From assembly GCA_012271135.1 (NCBI GenBank), contig JAAXGZ010000152.1:18940-82939 (forward strand): 64,000 nt of DNA, read 5' to 3'. The stretch's first letter is position 1; each line of letters starts with the position of its first letter. Positions 15,810-22,640 of the stretch are shown here, one piece after another. This stretch comes from Caldilineales bacterium. GTDB taxonomy: Bacteria > Chloroflexota > Anaerolineae > Caldilineales > Caldilineaceae. The position numbers and the translations under genes are program-made. A model generated the notes under the pieces. It was not told the DNA's origin. It did not search any database and was given only the letters and a program-made list of their open reading frames with translations.

Positions 15810-18218
15810 ATGGACGGCATATCGATAGGGAATGAACACCTGCGCGTGGATGTCAGGCAGATCGAGGGTCTGCAATGGCTGGCGTTTCGGGTCGGGGATG
15901 AAGGCGGCAACTGGATGGACGTAGCCGTGACCGGCGCGCGGGCTCCGGTGTCCATTTGGCAGGCGGAGCGTCGGGCTGTCAGCGAAAGTCCGGAGATGAT
16001 CTGGGCACCGGCCAGCAGCGGAGATTTCCAACGCGACGTCGGCGGCTGGGACAGCGCAGAGGCGGAAGGGGACGAGCTTGTCCTGACCCGCAGGGCGGCA
16101 TCGATCGATGCCAGTCCTCTAATCGAGACCCGTGTCCGACTGGATGGGGAGTGCGGGGTCCATGTCCGGACCCGGATCCGCATTGCGGCTGCGATCAGGC
16201 TAGCCCGGTGCATGCATCATGTCTGGCTGGCACCGGGAGGCCGACTGGAAAGGTTCTGCGAGCCCCTGGACTTCGCTTGGCTGCCGAACCTGCACCGGAG
16301 CGAGGATCACATTTGTGCCGATCACTTCTTCCGCGCACCAACGGTTGTTGCGGTGGCCCGGGGCTGCCACGCGGCCCTGCTCCCAGACCTTGCCCTCATG
16401 GAAGCGGATGCCCCCGTGCCTTTGGCTCTGGACCTGCGGATCGAAGGTACCGGTCTGGAAGCACCGCGCCTCTCCTTCGGCTTCTGCGCCTCGGAGCCGG
16501 AAGGGCACGTGTACTTCCGCAGTGGCCCGGACCTTGCACCGGTACTGGAGAACCGGGTCCTGACCTGCGGCTTTCGCCTGTGGTTCGGACAGGAGGAGAC
16601 CCCCGGACAGGTCGTCGATCGAATCGTGCGGTGGCAGTGGCAGACGTACGGACACCCCCTGCTTAAGGAGCCGGAACCCCAGGTTCTCCCCTTCCGTCAG
16701 TACGGCACGCGCTATGTCTTCCGACACGAGTTGCCGACGAGTATTCGCAAGGTTGAGCGGCGGGGCTTGGAATGCGTTGGCATCGACAACCCTTACCGCC
16801 GCGGTGCCCAATTCCATGCCTGGGAAAACGATCTGCACGTCGGGTATGGCCTCAGGCACTATGCGGGGAGGCTGGACAACACGATGCTGCAGGAGGCAAG
16901 CCAGGGGATCCTCCACTTGTTCTCTGATACCCCGCGTACCGAAGGCGCCTTCCCCTGCATCTTCAACTTCGACGAAGGTGTCTGGGAGGGATCCCTGTTT
17001 TGGACGGCGCGCAGCGCGGATTGGCGCCGTGGGTTCGACACGGCAGCCATGTCCGTGTCGGCCTGGTGGCTGCTGCAGTGGGTACAGGACTTCCCCGACT
17101 TGGACCGAGAGCCGCTGCTGGAGCTTCTCACCGCCTACTGCGACTTTCTGGTTGGCAACCAGCTTGAGTCGGGTGCCATTCCCACCTACTTCGATGCGGA
17201 CCTTAATCCCCTACCACCACTCAAGGAGAGCGCCACCACGGCCATAGCGGGAGCCGTCCTGGCCTCCGCAGCCAACCTGCTGCTGAATCCGCTCTATACC
17301 CGTGCCGCCATGCGGGCCGGCTACTTCATTGCCGAGCAGGCCATTCCGCATCTTCGGTTCGACGACTTTGAGACCTTCTATTCCTGCAGCCCCAAACCCG
17401 TGGATGCCGTGGACTACTGGTCGGGCCTCCCGCCGCATACCAACCTCTCCATCCAATGGGCCTGCGACATGTACCTGGAGTTGTGGAAGCGCACGCGCGA
17501 GGAACTGTGGCTGGAGCACGGAATGCACCTGCTGAACATCCTCTCCCTGTACCAGCAGGTTTGGAATCCCGTGCACCTGCCCGGCCACCTGTTCGGCGGG
17601 TTCGGCGTGATGAACACGGACGGCGAATGGAACGACGGGCGGCAGGCCCGGTTTGTGTCCACGTACGGTGCCTGGTACTTGGCCACGGGGCGCACCGAGT
17701 ACCTGGAACGGGCGGTGGCCGCCTGCCGCGCCTCGTTTGCCTTGATGGACATCCGGGAGAACCACCTGAACAACATCAACACGGTGGAGATGCCGGACCA
17801 TGGCCTGCATCTGGGCTACGCGCCGGAAAACATCCACCACAGCGGCCGCGACACTGGCTATGGGTGGTCCGGCATGAACTGGAGTGCCGCCGGCGGCCTG
17901 GCGGCCAGCGCCTGGCTGGAACGGCATCTGGGTTCCGTCTTCCTTGATGTCTCGCGCCGCGTCGCCCATGGCATTGACGGGATGCGGGCCCAGGTCCTGT
18001 CGTGGACGGAGGAACGCGTGGAGTTGGAACTAGCGTCCGCCCTGCGCGATCTGACGCATCCGTACAACGGTCCCAGGGACATTGTGCTCCTGGCCGGGGG
18101 CTGGCAGTGGATGGACGAGGATCCCGACGATCTTGAGCTGGTGGTCAATGGCGAGGAACTGGGTGTCATCGAGGCCGAATTGCTGCAGGCCGGGCTGTCC
18201 CTGACCCTGGATGGCTGA
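15810..18218 (+). CDS. Large glycosidase-like protein, unknown specificity
   Basis: An 802-residue protein with no signal peptide. The first third looks like beta-sandwich sequence (alternating hydrophobic strands). The remainder is helix-rich with repeated aromatic and Trp/Tyr patches (WENDLHVGYGLRHYAGRLD, FDEGVWEGSLFW, DYWSGLPPHTN), as in (alpha/alpha)6 six-hairpin glycosidases and lyases. I cannot assign a CAZy family or catalytic acid. The ATG at 15810 follows GAGAAAGG. Its stop overlaps the start of the membrane-protein gene by 8 bases (ATGGCTGA), so these two and the CobW gene are surely one operon. Cytoplasmic processing of imported sugars would fit the importers elsewhere in the window, but this is inference. 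Confidence 0.7.
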   Translation: MDGISIGNEHLRVDVRQIEGLQWLAFRVGDEGGNWMDVAVTGARAPVSIWQAERRAVSESPEMIWAPASSGDFQRDVGGWDSAEAEGDELVLTRRAASIDASPLIETRVRLDGECGVHVRTRIRIAAAIRLARCMHHVWLAPGGRLERFCEPLDFAWLPNLHRSEDHICADHFFRAPTVVAVARGCHAALLPDLALMEADAPVPLALDLRIEGTGLEAPRLSFGFCASEPEGHVYFRSGPDLAPVLENRVLTCGFRLWFGQEETPGQVVDRIVRWQWQTYGHPLLKEPEPQVLPFRQYGTRYVFRHELPTSIRKVERRGLECVGIDNPYRRGAQFHAWENDLHVGYGLRHYAGRLDNTMLQEASQGILHLFSDTPRTEGAFPCIFNFDEGVWEGSLFWTARSADWRRGFDTAAMSVSAWWLLQWVQDFPDLDREPLLELLTAYCDFLVGNQLESGAIPTYFDADLNPLPPLKESATTAIAGAVLASAANLLLNPLYTRAAMRAGYFIAEQAIPHLRFDDFETFYSCSPKPVDAVDYWSGLPPHTNLSIQWACDMYLELWKRTREELWLEHGMHLLNILSLYQQVWNPVHLPGHLFGGFGVMNTDGEWNDGRQARFVSTYGAWYLATGRTEYLERAVAACRASFALMDIRENHLNNINTVEMPDHGLHLGYAPENIHHSGRDTGYGWSGMNWSAAGGLAASAWLERHLGSVFLDVSRRVAHGIDGMRAQVLSWTEERVELELASALRDLTHPYNGPRDIVLLAGGWQWMDEDPDDLELVVNGEELGVIEAELLQAGLSLTLDG

Positions 18219-18960
18219 GGTGGATGCCATGGTCGAACCGCTGCGCCTTGATCAGGTGGGATTCGAGGATCAGTCCGCGGTTCGTGTGGCAACGGGACTG
18301 ATCCGAACCGCCGGGTTACGGCTGCCGCTGCACGGACTGCTGCTGGGCGTGGCCGCCGTGCCAGCCTGGTGGGTGATAACCAATTCGGGCCATGTTCCGG
18401 TGGCCTCGCTGCTGGCCTGGTTGCTGACGGTTCCGCTGTGGTCTGCCCTGAGCTACCCCGTCGGGCGGGCCGCCACTGGCCGGGCTACGAATGGCCGCGT
18501 GATCCTGCAGCTCCTGGTGGTCCACTGGCGATCGGCGTTGCTAATCGGCCTGCCTCCGGTGGCGGGGTTTGGCCTGTGGGTGGCGATCGTCAATCTTCAA
18601 AGGACCGAACCGCCGTTGCCGGTTGCCGTGGGGATGGCGGGTCAACTTGGTGTGACCGCGGTGCTGGCGGTCGTGACCGTGCATGCCCTGACGGTTCGGG
18701 TGCTGTTCAACCTGCCGACCGGCCGGTCACTGCGGTACGGACTGGCCTTGGCCCTGCGCTGGCCGTTGGCCACGGTTGGCCTGATTGCCGGCGTCTGGCT
18801 TCTGGTCTTGGCGGCCAGATCCCTAGGAGAGGTGTTCTGGCTGCTATTGCCGGGCTTGACACACCCGTGCGCCGTTGCGGCCACGGTGCTTCTGTGCCGG
18901 CGCGGGCAGCAACTCGAGGTGGAAGCGGAGGCCCACATGTTGCAGGAGGACTTCCAATGA
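18211..18960 (+). CDS. Multi-pass membrane protein, unknown function
   Basis: A 249-residue protein with about six hydrophobic helices (roughly residues 40-60, 65-82, 105-127, 140-165, 182-205 and 210-232) and an acidic N terminus. No motif is recognised. The size and even spacing of helices are loosely like DUF624/YesL proteins, which accompany glycan-use operons, but I cannot confirm that. It overlaps the upstream gene by 8 bases and the downstream CobW gene by 4 (ATGA), indicating translational coupling. Confidence 0.7.
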   Translation: MAEVDAMVEPLRLDQVGFEDQSAVRVATGLIRTAGLRLPLHGLLLGVAAVPAWWVITNSGHVPVASLLAWLLTVPLWSALSYPVGRAATGRATNGRVILQLLVVHWRSALLIGLPPVAGFGLWVAIVNLQRTEPPLPVAVGMAGQLGVTAVLAVVTVHALTVRVLFNLPTGRSLRYGLALALRWPLATVGLIAGVWLLVLAARSLGEVFWLLLPGLTHPCAVAATVLLCRRGQQLEVEAEAHMLQEDFQ

Positions 18961-20027
18961 CCAGATTGGTGTTTCTTGGCGGATTTCTGGGTGCCGGCAA
19001 GACGACGCTTCTGTTGCGTGCGGCCTCGATGTTGCAGGACCGCGGGCTGGAGGCCGGCTTTGTGACCAATGATCAGGGCAGCGACTTGGTGGACACCGCG
19101 CGGGGTGCTTCCGCGAAGCTGCCGGTGGCGGAAGTGGCGGGTGGCTGCTTCTGCTGTCGCTGGTCGGAATTGGCCGGAGCTTTGGAGACGTTGGCGGATC
19201 GAGGACCCGACGTCATCCTTGCGGAACCGGTGGGCAGCTGCACCGACCTGGCCGCCACGGTCCTTCGTCCCCTGCTGGTGCAGGGACCGGCGAACTTGGA
19301 CTTGGCTCCGCTTTCGGTACTGGTGTCAACGAACAACGCCTCGGCCCGCCGGTCGGCCAAGGTCGAATGGCTGCAGGATCAGCAGGTGAGGGAATGCCAC
19401 TGGCTGCTGCTCGGCAAGGCGGACCGCCTGTCGCCGGCGGACCGGGAGGCGCGGCGCGCGGAGTTGGCGGCTCTCTATCCGGGTGTGTCGCGCATCCTTC
19501 CGGTGTCCGGACGCACCGGGGAGGGTGTGGACGACTGGCTTGATCTGGTTCTGGGCAGGCCGGTGGACAATGTCGAAGTCCTGGACATTGACTACCGGAC
19601 GTATGCGGAGGCTGAGGCGGAGCTCGGTTGGCTGAATGCCGCGTGCGAACTGCGCAGTTCGCAGCCGCACAACCCATCCCAAATCGCCGAGACGATGGAG
19701 AGTCGCATGGCGGATCGGCTGGCGGCCGAAGGCGTGGAACTGGCTCACTTCAAACTACTGGTCAGGACGCCGACAGGGGCGCGCGCCGGCAGCCGGGTTT
19801 CCCATGCCGAATCCTGGGAGTGGGATTCGGATGCCCCGCTCTTGCCCGATTCCGGGGGTATGGAACTGGTGGTCAACCTCCGGGCCTTGGGCGCGCCCGA
19901 CGTGCTGTGGGATGCCTTGGTGGAGGCCCTCTCCAATCTGCAGGCGGAGTACAGCATCCGGTGGTACATGACCCGGTGCGAGGCCTTCCGGCCCCTCGCA
20001 CCCAAGCCGGAGATCCGGATCGCCTGA
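18957..20027 (+). CDS. CobW/COG0523 family GTPase (metal chaperone type)
   Basis: A 356-residue G3E-family GTPase. Walker A is GGFLGAGKTT (8-17), the metal-binding motif CxCC is GCFCC (C64, C66, C67), and LAEPVGSCTDL matches the family's switch region. The guanine-specificity motif is degenerate (GKAD in place of NKxD). COG0523 proteins insert or deliver zinc, cobalt or iron to client proteins; which metal is involved here is unknown. The C-terminal half is divergent from classical CobW. The ATG at 18957 overlaps the stop of the membrane-protein gene (ATGA). A metal chaperone coupled to a glycosidase-like gene is unusual and may point to a metal-dependent client. Confidence 0.88.
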   Translation: MTRLVFLGGFLGAGKTTLLLRAASMLQDRGLEAGFVTNDQGSDLVDTARGASAKLPVAEVAGGCFCCRWSELAGALETLADRGPDVILAEPVGSCTDLAATVLRPLLVQGPANLDLAPLSVLVSTNNASARRSAKVEWLQDQQVRECHWLLLGKADRLSPADREARRAELAALYPGVSRILPVSGRTGEGVDDWLDLVLGRPVDNVEVLDIDYRTYAEAEAELGWLNAACELRSSQPHNPSQIAETMESRMADRLAAEGVELAHFKLLVRTPTGARAGSRVSHAESWEWDSDAPLLPDSGGMELVVNLRALGAPDVLWDALVEALSNLQAEYSIRWYMTRCEAFRPLAPKPEIRIA

Positions 20028-20095: not shown

Positions 20096-21592
20096 TCAGT
20101 GCAAACAGTGCCGATAGGTGTCCATGCGGTCGGTGAGAGCCAGCCGGTCGGTCAGCCTGGCCATCATGTCGGCCTTGACCGACAAGTGTGCGGGGTCGTC
20201 CCAAAGATTCCGCATTTCCAGTGGATCGTTTTCCAAGTCGTAAAGGACGCCGTCGCCGAAGCCGCCGTAGACGCAGACCTTCCAGCGTTCCGTGATCAGC
20301 ATGCGATAGCGGCACATCTCCGTGGAGATGCCGTCCTCGTCATATTCGATTAGTTTGCCTTCCTGCTGCGGCCGCGCCCCGTCCTCGATTACCGGCCGCA
20401 GGGATTCGCCGGGGAGAATGGCGCGGCGGGAGCGATGGCCGCCGCGCAGGTCGAATGCCTCCTGGCCCAGGCCGGCGTAGTCCAGGACCGTGGGGACGAA
20501 GTCCAAGTGGCTGACCGGCTGCGGAATCCGAGCTCCCTTCCGGCCATCCGGAGTGTGCCAGATCAGCGGCACGCGCACCACGGGTTCGTACGGCCAGGGT
20601 CCCTTGAGCAGCAGGTTGTGGGATCCCAGATACTCGCCGTGGTCGGAGAGGAATACCACGATCGTGTTGTCGGTCAGGCCAAGTTCCGTCAGGGCATCGC
20701 GCAGTCGGCCCATGCAGTCGTCGATGTGGGTGATCATGCCGTAGGTTTGGGCAATCGCCTCCCTTAGGATGCCCTCGTCCCAACCCCGGTGCGTGGGGCG
20801 GTCGAACCGTTCCAGGTAGCCACAGGGGTCCTCACTGCAGTCCCAGTTGTCGGGCAGCGATACGGATTCCGGGTCATACATTTCGCTGTACGGCCGCGCC
20901 GCGCAAAAGGGAGCGTGCGGATCGGGGAACGAGGTGACCAGGAAGAAGGGCCGGTCCCCCTGCCGACGCAGGAATTCGATGCTGCGCTCCGTAATCCAGT
21001 CGTTGTAGTGCCATTCGGACGGAACGGGCATGCGCCAGGTCTGGGGACCGGCCGAGGCATAGGCTTTCTCCCGGCTCAGTTCGGCCTTGGTTCCCGATCG
21101 CCTGGCCTCGACGTCGTTTACATAGTCGCCAAAGACATAGTTCACGTGGCCGCCCACGTAGTCGACACTCTGGTAACCGTAGTACGGCAGCGGCAGTTCC
21201 GTGATGTCGTGGCCGTTCCACAGTTCCTGGCTTTCCCACGAGGACGGCTGACCAGCCTCGTCCCGCGCCTCCGTGTTGAAGGGCTGCAGGTGGATTTTGC
21301 CCGCGCAATGGGTTCGATACCCATGTTCGGCCAAGAGGCCGGTGATTGTGGGAATGTTCTCGTCCAGGTTGCAGCCGTTGGTCGTCAGGCCGTGCTGGCG
21401 CGGGGTCAGGCCGGTGTGCAGCGAGGCCCGCGTGGGCGAACACACCGGATTGGTCGGGTAGGCCCGGTTGAAGTTGACACCGTCGGCGGCCAGCCGATCC
21501 AGGTTCGGCGTTCGGACTTCATCGTTGCCGTTCCAACCCAGGCAGAAACTGTTCATCTGGTCGACGATGATGACGAGGAAATTGGGGCGCAT
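20096..21592 (-). CDS. Sulfatase, Cys-type formylglycine (copy A)
   Basis: A 498-residue member of the alkaline-phosphatase/sulfatase superfamily, hydrolysing sulfate esters with a formylglycine made from Cys51 in CSPTR. Metal ligands are visible in VDQMN (D11, Q12) and SDHGEYLGSH; GKIHLQ supplies the Lys-His pair. There is no signal peptide, so it appears cytoplasmic. The ATG at 21592 is where the family begins (MRPNFLVIIVDQ). It is closely similar along its whole length to the sulfatase at 34972-36477, so it is a paralogue; here it stands without an importer. A maturase (FGE or anSME) must be encoded elsewhere. The substrate is unknown. Confidence 0.93.
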   Translation of the reverse strand: MRPNFLVIIVDQMNSFCLGWNGNDEVRTPNLDRLAADGVNFNRAYPTNPVCSPTRASLHTGLTPRQHGLTTNGCNLDENIPTITGLLAEHGYRTHCAGKIHLQPFNTEARDEAGQPSSWESQELWNGHDITELPLPYYGYQSVDYVGGHVNYVFGDYVNDVEARRSGTKAELSREKAYASAGPQTWRMPVPSEWHYNDWITERSIEFLRRQGDRPFFLVTSFPDPHAPFCAARPYSEMYDPESVSLPDNWDCSEDPCGYLERFDRPTHRGWDEGILREAIAQTYGMITHIDDCMGRLRDALTELGLTDNTIVVFLSDHGEYLGSHNLLLKGPWPYEPVVRVPLIWHTPDGRKGARIPQPVSHLDFVPTVLDYAGLGQEAFDLRGGHRSRRAILPGESLRPVIEDGARPQQEGKLIEYDEDGISTEMCRYRMLITERWKVCVYGGFGDGVLYDLENDPLEMRNLWDDPAHLSVKADMMARLTDRLALTDRMDTYRHCLH

Positions 21593-21717
21593 TGGGAACT
21601 CGCTGTGGTTGCAGGTGATCAAGTAGGAGGCATACAGCCGGGGTTGGACGAACCCGGGGAACGCGCGGGCAGGTGCCAAGATGCTGCCGCATGTGTACTC
21701 CTTCGGCCAGCCGCGCT

Positions 21718-22134
21718 TTATGTGCCCCTATCCGGCTCGAAGGGATTCAACACGGGTACGCCGGCACGGTCGAAGTGGCGGACATTGCGGGTGACCACCG
21801 TCAACCCGTGGACGAGGGCGGTAGCGGCGATCATGAGATCGACGTTGTCGTATCCCAGAGATGCCGACAGCTGTCCCCAGCGCTGCGCCACTGCAACATC
21901 CAGGGACAAAACCCGGTCTCCGTACAGGGTGAGCAATCGGAACAACCAGACATCCAACGCGTGGGCGAAGGGAGCATTGTGGCGTTCCTGTTGCGTGATG
22001 CCCCGCCGTATCTCGCCAATGGTAACGGCACTCAGGAACAGTTCCCGGGGCTGGTGCTGCGCCGCCCATCGGGCGACCTGAGGGTGTCTGTCCGGTCTGC
22101 GGAGGGCAGACACTACGTTGGTATCCAGCAACAC
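21718..22134 (-). CDS. vapC: PIN-domain ribonuclease toxin VapC/FitB-like
   Basis: A 138-residue PIN nuclease, the toxin of a type II pair. The acidic site is visible: D4 in LLDTN, the Glu in TIGEIRRG, and the Asp in VDLMIAATAL followed by the family motif TRNVRHF. The GTG at 22134 overlaps the stop of the antitoxin by one base (TAGTG), so translation is coupled. The track's start at 22422 lies inside the antitoxin gene and is wrong. It lies 125 bases upstream of the sulfatase start, on the same strand. Confidence 0.93.
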   Translation of the reverse strand: MLLDTNVVSALRRPDRHPQVARWAAQHQPRELFLSAVTIGEIRRGITQQERHNAPFAHALDVWLFRLLTLYGDRVLSLDVAVAQRWGQLSASLGYDNVDLMIAATALVHGLTVVTRNVRHFDRAGVPVLNPFEPDRGT

Positions 22135-22391
22135 TACAGATCCACCGGGCGGGCATCCAGCGGCCAGCGCTCGAACTCGAAGTCGCCGCCTTTGGGTATG
22201 GCCAACAGGTGTTCCACGAATGTGGGCGTGTCGCTCGGTTCCTGCTTGCAAAGCCGTTCGTACTCTGCCACGGCCAGCACCACAACGGCGGGTTTGCCCC
22301 TGCGCGTCACTTGCTGGGGTTCGCCTGCCAAGGCGGCATCCACCACGGCGCTGAAGCGGTTCTTGGCATCCTGCAATTGCCATGTGGGCAT
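22134..22391 (-). CDS. Phd/YefM-type antitoxin
   Basis: An 85-residue antitoxin. Residues 1-50 form the Phd/YefM DNA-binding fold (MPTWQLQDAKNRFSAVV, then VTRRGKPAVVVLAVAEYERL). The acidic, Phe/Trp-containing tail (FVEHLLAIPKGGDF) would wrap the toxin. It normally represses its own operon. It precedes and overlaps vapC. A decayed copy of the same antitoxin tail lies immediately upstream (22498-22640), so the locus once held two related pairs. Confidence 0.92.
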   Translation of the reverse strand: MPTWQLQDAKNRFSAVVDAALAGEPQQVTRRGKPAVVVLAVAEYERLCKQEPSDTPTFVEHLLAIPKGGDFEFERWPLDARPVDL

Positions 22392-22422
22392 GTGACTTCT
22401 CCTGTCTAGACTGTCTAGCCAA

Positions 22423-22640
22423 TTATGCCACAAACAGCACGGATGAACCGATGAGCCGCCGCACGGCTGAGATGATGGCGGTGACCGACAGGTACATCAG
22501 CGATCGATGTCCCCGGGACTCTGTAGTCTCTGGTTCGGGACGGCAACTCGAAGGCGTCGTTGTCGGGCGCCGGGGGAATGTCGTGCAAGTGGTCCACAAA
22601 GTTGGGCATATGATCCGGTTGGTCTTGGCACAGCAAGTCC
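22423..22640 (-). pseudogene. Remnant of a second Phd-VapC pair
   Basis: Reading leftward, LLCQDQPDHMPNFVDHLHDI aligns with the tail of the intact neighbour (LCKQEPSDTPTFVEHLLAIP). After a likely one-base frameshift the frame ends DIDR-stop, and that TGA overlaps an ATG (TGATG at 22499-22495). The new frame reads MYLSVTAIISAVRR, which resembles the VapC opening LLDTNVVSALRR but lacks the essential Asp, and stops soon after. The antitoxin tail is now fused in frame to a TnpB fragment. This assignment rests on alignment by eye to the neighbouring pair. Confidence 0.6.

Follow-up and report, generated by a model that had tools for sequence, protein, structure and literature searches.

Three overlapping genes on the forward strand of a 64,000-nucleotide stretch of Caldilineales DNA (hereafter the window, part of contig C73 in draft genome G000) encode an unclassified protein of 802 residues, a membrane protein of 249 residues and a 356-residue GTPase of the COG0523 (CobW/G3E) family. 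We find that the trio is a genus-level arrangement whose firm core is formed by the two outer genes, since two of the four species have it complete and it is absent elsewhere in our sample. The loci in which a related GTPase lies with a glycoside hydrolase family 116 (GH116) gene suggest that the window GTPase has a role in the maturation or fitting-out of a sugar enzyme. Our favoured explanation, held tentatively and somewhat short of even confidence, is that the trio is a small carbohydrate-utilisation operon in which the GTPase would act as a dedicated chaperone or metal insertase for the adjoining sugar enzyme, an ancestral GH116 partner having been exchanged.

Conservation of the outer gene pair

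The search for the trio covered 400 genomes sampled across Chloroflexota. In the three sister species (G001, G002 and G003) the 802-residue gene is 92-93% identical to that of the window and the GTPase gene 93-96% identical, the G003 copy of the latter being cut by a contig end. The two genes adjoin in all four species of the genus, and of the four only the window genome and G003 have kept the membrane gene between them. The outer genes are separated by about 170 bases in G001 and about 34 in G002, and these gaps hold the relic ends of a membrane gene with differing breakpoints. The membrane gene is deleted in these two species, and the outer pair stays adjacent and under purifying selection: the ratio of nonsynonymous to synonymous substitution rates (dN/dS) is 0.14-0.19 for the 802-residue gene and 0.12-0.15 for the GTPase, compared with 0.36 (one pair) for the membrane gene. 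The persistent adjacency of the outer genes, even where the membrane gene is gone, argues for a joint function of their products. These dN/dS values, together with orthologs of 90-96% identity in sister species, indicate that the three genes are real.

The original prediction had proposed looking for the trio in other Chloroflexota, where it proved to be whole in only two of the four species of a single genus; no trio was found outside the genus among the 400 genomes. Homologs of the 802-residue protein outside the genus amount to one of 28-31% identity in G014 and one fragment in G007, with none in the 400 phylum-wide genomes and none on plasmids. The view that the arrangement is not a standard one agrees with the literature searched, in which no description of it was found.

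As to the layout, coordinates, sizes, strand and the overlaps of 8 and 4 bases between the three open reading frames (ORFs) were all reproduced (Table 1). The trio had also been taken for the tightest coupling in the window; this is not established, as overlaps of equal or greater length occur in other ORF pairs (e.g., 52285-52686/52683-52943), and an ATGA overlap of 4 bases is commonplace.

Table 1. Position of the operon, its motifs and the convergent sulfatase gene within the window.
Feature	Coordinates	Strand	Remarks
802-residue protein ORF	15810-18218	+	unclassified protein, beta-rich N-terminal half
Predicted (alpha/alpha)6 barrel of the 802-residue protein	16797-17969	+	residues ~330-720
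249-residue membrane protein ORF	18211-18960	+	8-base overlap with upstream 802-residue gene
356-residue COG0523 (CobW/G3E) GTPase ORF	18957-20027	+	4-base overlap with upstream membrane gene
Walker A GGFLGAGKTT	18978-19007	+	GTPase residues 8-17; conserved
CxCC motif CFCC	19146-19157	+	GTPase residues 64-67; conserved in subfamily
EPVGSCTD subfamily signature	19224-19247	+	begins at Walker B Glu90; holds invariant Cys95
GKAD, G4 motif replacing NKxD	19413-19424	+	GTPase residues 153-156
Sulfatase (PF00884, 2.4e-50)	20096-21679	-	convergent to GTPase

The sulfatase gene probably lies outside the operon. Directly upstream of the operon is a gene for a Fic/DOC family protein (PF02661, PF13784; 14037-15380, +), and overlapping short genes that resemble, as judged by eye, a PIN-domain toxin and its antitoxin are located at 21718-22433 (-).

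The GTPase subfamily and its GH116-linked relatives

The assignment of the GTPase to COG0523 is borne out by its Walker A and CxCC motifs and by a match to PF02492 (cobW) of 7.5e-19, above the cut-off; Pfam recognises only the CobW nucleotide-binding domain, and the C-terminal part is unmatched. The protein is not CobW proper of cobalamin synthesis (TIGR02475, 27.7 bits versus an equivalog cut-off of 332.1), and its best NCBIfam match, the CobW-related selenoprotein model NF041053, is far under the cut-off (42.8 versus 180 bits). Full-length orthologs of 41-45% identity occur in sister genera of the Caldilineaceae, relatives occur in 13 of the 400 phylum genomes at 1e-30 and in 31 of 396 class genomes at 1e-40, and full-length homologs of 31-36% identity are found on plasmids of Priestia, Alicyclobacillus, Pantoea, Enterobacter and Klebsiella.

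Nearly all members of this group carry E-[PAS]-V-G-S-C-[TA]-D, the exceptions being EADGTCAD (Leptolinea) and ESVGSCVD (two genomes). An outgroup of two other COG0523 proteins reads ETSG-VSDP at the same site and lacks the cysteine. Glu90 (Walker B) and Cys95 are invariant in the subfamily. Judged from the alignment, the window GTPase belongs to a distinct COG0523 subfamily with an extra invariant cysteine, and Cys95, on account of its invariance, is a candidate extra metal ligand. The CxCC motif and the altered NKxD motif (GKAD) that had been reported for the GTPase can both be read in the sequence. The lysine and aspartate of the G4 motif are invariant in 44/44 subfamily members and its first residue is N, S, T or G, near relatives of the same family having SKSD and TKTD, so that GKAD appears to be a tolerated substitution and no mark of decay. 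The loss of a C-terminal His/Cys motif was considered as a genus-specific trait and discarded, the motif being also absent in other branches.

According to the main text of Haas et al. (2009; PMC2770081), G3E proteins use GTP to insert a metal or cofactor into a client, which differs from subgroup to subgroup. With the COG0523 proteins treated there, the window GTPase shares the P-loop, the Walker B glutamate, the CxCC motif, the size and the extra C-terminal domain, as well as a pattern in which each subgroup clusters with a different client gene; it differs by the EPVGSCTD signature with its extra invariant cysteine, the variable start of NKxD and the lack of a His-rich stretch. Metal delivery by the window GTPase would be carried over by analogy from its family name. 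That main text describes no sugar or glycosidase neighbourhood, 10 of the 15 subgroups being described only in its supplement, and our literature search returned no paper combining COG0523, GTPase and glycoside hydrolase.

GTPase orthologs adjoin, or lie one gene away from, a GH116 gene in four genera of four families (g7, G217, G640 and g99). In g7, a genus of Caldilineaceae represented by five genomes, the GTPase directly follows a gene for an 872-residue GH116 protein (PF12215 6.3e-55, PF04685 6.8e-37), with a 4-base overlap where the start is clear; in two of the five (L053, L054) the genes upstream encode a solute-binding protein and two permeases of a sugar ATP-binding cassette (ABC) transporter and a membrane protein related to that of the window. 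The order in G640 is permease, membrane protein, GH116, FucI-like isomerase, GTPase and DUF2961 (GH172). In g99 the GTPase precedes a 1003-residue GH116 protein, and GH29 and GH42 genes are also present. In G217 the order is GH116, Cpn60-like chaperonin, GTPase and ABC genes, with LacI, FucI-type isomerase (PF02952, 5.1e-37) and FGGY kinase genes nearby. The chaperonin gene of this locus (PF00118 4.5e-33; L087:7371-8978) stands between GH116 and GTPase. The accessory sugar genes (ABC, DUF624-like, FucI-type, FGGY kinase, LacI, DUF2961/GH172) are not all found in each GH116 locus. With only 0-3 GH116 genes per genome (30 genomes scanned), the probability of finding one adjacent to the GTPase by chance in 4 of 11 genus lineages is roughly 4e-7, a post hoc estimate; in g3 and g150 the neighbour of the GTPase is hidden by contig ends.

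In a maximum-likelihood tree of 46 GTPase sequences, the window protein falls in a Caldilineaceae clade (96/95) together with the GH116-linked g7 sequences. The stem of the window genus is long (1.54 changes per column), as expected after a change of partner. A branch linked to URO-D genes (100/100) and another linked to arsinothricin clusters (99/93) form separate clades.

These sister branches could mean that the window GTPase is a helper of corrinoid or radical enzymes, its sugar neighbourhood being secondary, which we consider very unlikely. Branch B indeed lies beside URO-D and thioredoxin-domain genes, often with B12-binding proteins, in most Anaerolineae loci, a pattern as in subfamily 13 in the main text of Haas et al. 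(PMC2770081), and branch C lies in arsinothricin clusters; no corrinoid, URO-D or radical SAM gene was recognised, however, beside the GH116-linked members or the window genes. Branch B is probably subfamily 13 itself, which is linked to corrinoid methyltransferases and has URO-D/MtaA-type and B12-binding proteins as partners; mostly CFCC[NSHG][YF] stands there at the CxCC site, compared with CFCCR[FW] in the window branch with its sugar-enzyme partners.

The sister branches also show neighbourhoods of their own. In many Anaerolineae (L091, L094, L126-L139) the immediate neighbour of the GTPase is a URO-D protein whose C-terminal part is a thioredoxin domain. Arsinothricin-type clusters on plasmids of Priestia, Alicyclobacillus, Pantoea and Enterobacter (L098-L102) consistently include a GTPase of the window protein's subfamily, accompanied by ArsM, a radical SAM protein with an RCCLKC tail, an ATP-grasp protein and an aquaporin or MFS protein. 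This GTP-binding protein is a full-length homolog of the window GTPase (31-36% identity) with the same signature, and differs in forming its own clade and in having ArsM, the radical SAM and the ATP-grasp protein as partners. The paper on the arsinothricin gene cluster makes no mention of a GTP-binding or CobW protein (PMC8552651).

The GH116 partners themselves point toward D-arabinan. ExoMA2, a Microbacterium exo-beta-D-arabinofuranosidase, is matched by the g7 protein at 2.5e-127 and by the GH116 protein encoded in the window genome itself (contig C64) at 4e-137; other GH116 structures match these two proteins at only 1e-8 to 1e-15. In ExoMA2, His446 and Arg483 separate recognition of arabinofuranose from that of glucose (PMC10509167), and the C64 protein, aligned to ExoMA2 with the chain numbering shifted by four, keeps both residues. 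On these alignments, at least some of the GH116 partners would be exo-beta-D-arabinofuranosidases. The D-arabinan locus of Microbacterium arabinogalactanolyticum (ExoMA1/ExoMA2) holds GH183, GH172, GH116 of subfamily 4, an ABC transporter, an isomerase and a kinase (PMC10509167). The GTPase-GH116 loci of related Chloroflexota resemble it, some of them likewise having GH116, GH172, sugar ABC, isomerase and kinase genes; unlike these, the Microbacterium locus has no CobW or GTP protein mentioned in the text. Each of the 17 genomes checked, that of the window among them, carries DUF2961 (GH172-type) genes, which for the most part do not adjoin the GTPase. A D-arabinan reading is reasonable for the related GH116 loci. 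It may extend by inference to the window operon, which, unlike the Microbacterium locus, is without GH116; the substrate there would be D-arabinofuranosides or related oligosaccharides.

The 802-residue protein and the membrane protein

The 802-residue protein has no Pfam match, and a single-sequence search of the PDB was also empty. A profile search of the PDB reached GH105 at E 0.016, and the distant homolog in G014 (L066_4, 28-31% identity) matches PF07470 (GH88) at 1.4e-5, just under the cut-off. The whole-protein AlphaFold2 model was poor (predicted local distance difference test score, pLDDT, 41), so its fold matches serve only as a hint and residues 330-720 were folded alone. The separate model comprises six helical hairpins (predicted template-modelling score 0.73, pLDDT 62), and Foldseek relates it to AGE-fold sugar isomerases and epimerases and to GH76 (E 1e-4 to 1e-2, template-modelling score about 0.5), the best matches all belonging to the (alpha/alpha)6 fold class at 7-16% identity. 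The protein is best described as unclassified and as predicted to contain an (alpha/alpha)6-barrel domain like those of carbohydrate enzymes, and the models thus lend support to the carbohydrate-type enzyme that had been proposed. It is probably cytoplasmic, as no signal peptide is apparent in the sequence.

The predicted barrel is what the protein has in common with AGE-superfamily isomerases and epimerases, GH76, GH127 and GH88/105; it differs from them by an extra N-terminal half and the lack of a family signature. GH127/146 enzymes have a zinc-coordinated cysteine (PMC10728902). Assignment to GH127 was rejected, the Glu and three-Cys zinc site being absent, and only one cysteine, C526, is common to the protein and its distant homolog. 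GH116 was likewise rejected, with no PF12215 or PF04685 match and a profile-comparison probability of 0.8%.

For the membrane protein, the earlier description was confirmed by six hydrophobic segments, predicted to be transmembrane. The protein has no PF04854 (DUF624) match in the Pfam scan. It is 34% identical (1e-12) to L068_6, a protein encoded in the same genome between a sugar permease and GH116, which matches PF04854 weakly and under the cut-off (E 0.011, 16.3 bits versus 24.2). From this similarity, the window protein may be a distant DUF624/YesL-like protein: it shares with those of sugar operons the size, the predicted transmembrane segments and, in relatives, the position after ABC permeases, and differs in that only a relative, and not the protein itself, matches the Pfam model.

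A 54% identical paralog of the membrane gene lies on contig C84 of the window genome, where a sugar ABC operon precedes it and a GTPase pseudogene (L058:1-700, G000:C84) that has lost CxCC and contains an internal stop comes after it. This order implies that membrane gene and GTPase were once neighbours in such an operon, and suggests that they reached the window locus from there. It could then be argued that both are decaying left-overs of a sugar ABC operon and have no joint function with the 802-residue gene. The pseudogene is in line with this notion, as are the deletion of the membrane gene in two of four species and its weaker selection, and the fast evolution of the window GTPase lineage, which lacks three nearly invariant residues (D124, Y138 and K277). 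The residues of the P-loop, CxCC, Walker B and Cys95 are all kept in three species, however, at the low dN/dS of the GTPase, and the 802-residue gene is as constrained as the GTPase, so that decay seems to us improbable.

A possible role in sugar-enzyme maturation

In the model that we tentatively favour, the GTPase would be a GTP-driven chaperone or metal insertase dedicated to the sugar enzyme next to it, and Cys64/66/67 and Cys95 are candidates for binding the metal. The GH116 partner of related loci would have been replaced in this genus by the 802-residue barrel protein, and the YesL-like membrane protein would be a transporter accessory that came along from an ABC operon and can be dispensed with. 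Each branch of the subfamily would serve its genomic neighbour, be it URO-D/corrinoid proteins, arsinothricin enzymes, GH116 or the 802-residue protein. The need of the client may be folding help (compare the Cpn60-like gene in G217) or an overlooked metal, and any metal for GTPase or client is inferred.

Several observations weigh against this model. The 802-residue protein itself is not a GH116 or GH127 enzyme, its G014 homolog has no adjoining GTPase, the GTPases of G014, G017, G455 and G356 have no adjoining GH116, and the sister GTPase branches have different partners; the loss of three nearly invariant residues from the window GTPase points the same way. Moreover, the enzymes with barrels like this one (sugar epimerases, GH76) mostly do without a metal, to our knowledge, and we know of no required metal in GH116 or the barrel relatives. 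The ExoMA2 paper mentions neither calcium nor zinc (PMC10509167). Together, the silence of that paper and the metal-independence of most barrel relatives leave the need for a metallochaperone unexplained.

In this regard, the GTPase could instead be a general or sugar-induced metal-homeostasis factor with another client, such as a Mn-dependent FucI-type isomerase or the convergent sulfatase, its adjacency to glycosidases reflecting only co-regulation with sugar use. L-fucose isomerases use Mn2+, and a FucI-type isomerase is encoded in the same locus in G640 and G217; a search for FucI was empty, however, in G009 and in all four species of the window genus, and its absence from that genus led us to reject it as a universal client of the GTPase. 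In the window genus a sulfatase gene converges on the GTPase (same order in G002, 97% identical), as does that of a distant homolog in G356, but identity between the two sulfatases is only 29% and their genes lie on the strand opposite to the GTPase; we judged this link weak. The subfamily has other partners elsewhere, as this explanation would allow, yet GH116 is the most recurrent partner in this GTPase branch. We regard co-regulation as possible, although on the doubtful side.

A bolder form of the favoured model, and an unlikely one in our judgement, is that the GTPases of this COG0523 branch are devoted to the maturation of intracellular glycosidases, each working as a GTP-driven insertase (CxCC plus Cys95) in metal loading or folding; their clients would be GH116-type enzymes and, in this genus, a new (alpha/alpha)6-barrel family. 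We are aware of no earlier example of glycoside hydrolases being matured in this way. If the proposal is true, glycosidases would have a metal site or a need for help in folding that has gone unrecognised.

Most COG0523 subgroups are without a known client, and the recurrent adjacency to GH116 in four families offers a testable one. It raises the question of whether work with recombinant protein has overlooked a requirement of GH116 exo-arabinofuranosidases and similar barrels for a metal or for assistance in folding. On its predicted fold, the 802-residue protein may represent a new family of barrel proteins, and the loci as a whole point to an unstudied use of D-arabinan or D-arabinose in Chloroflexota.

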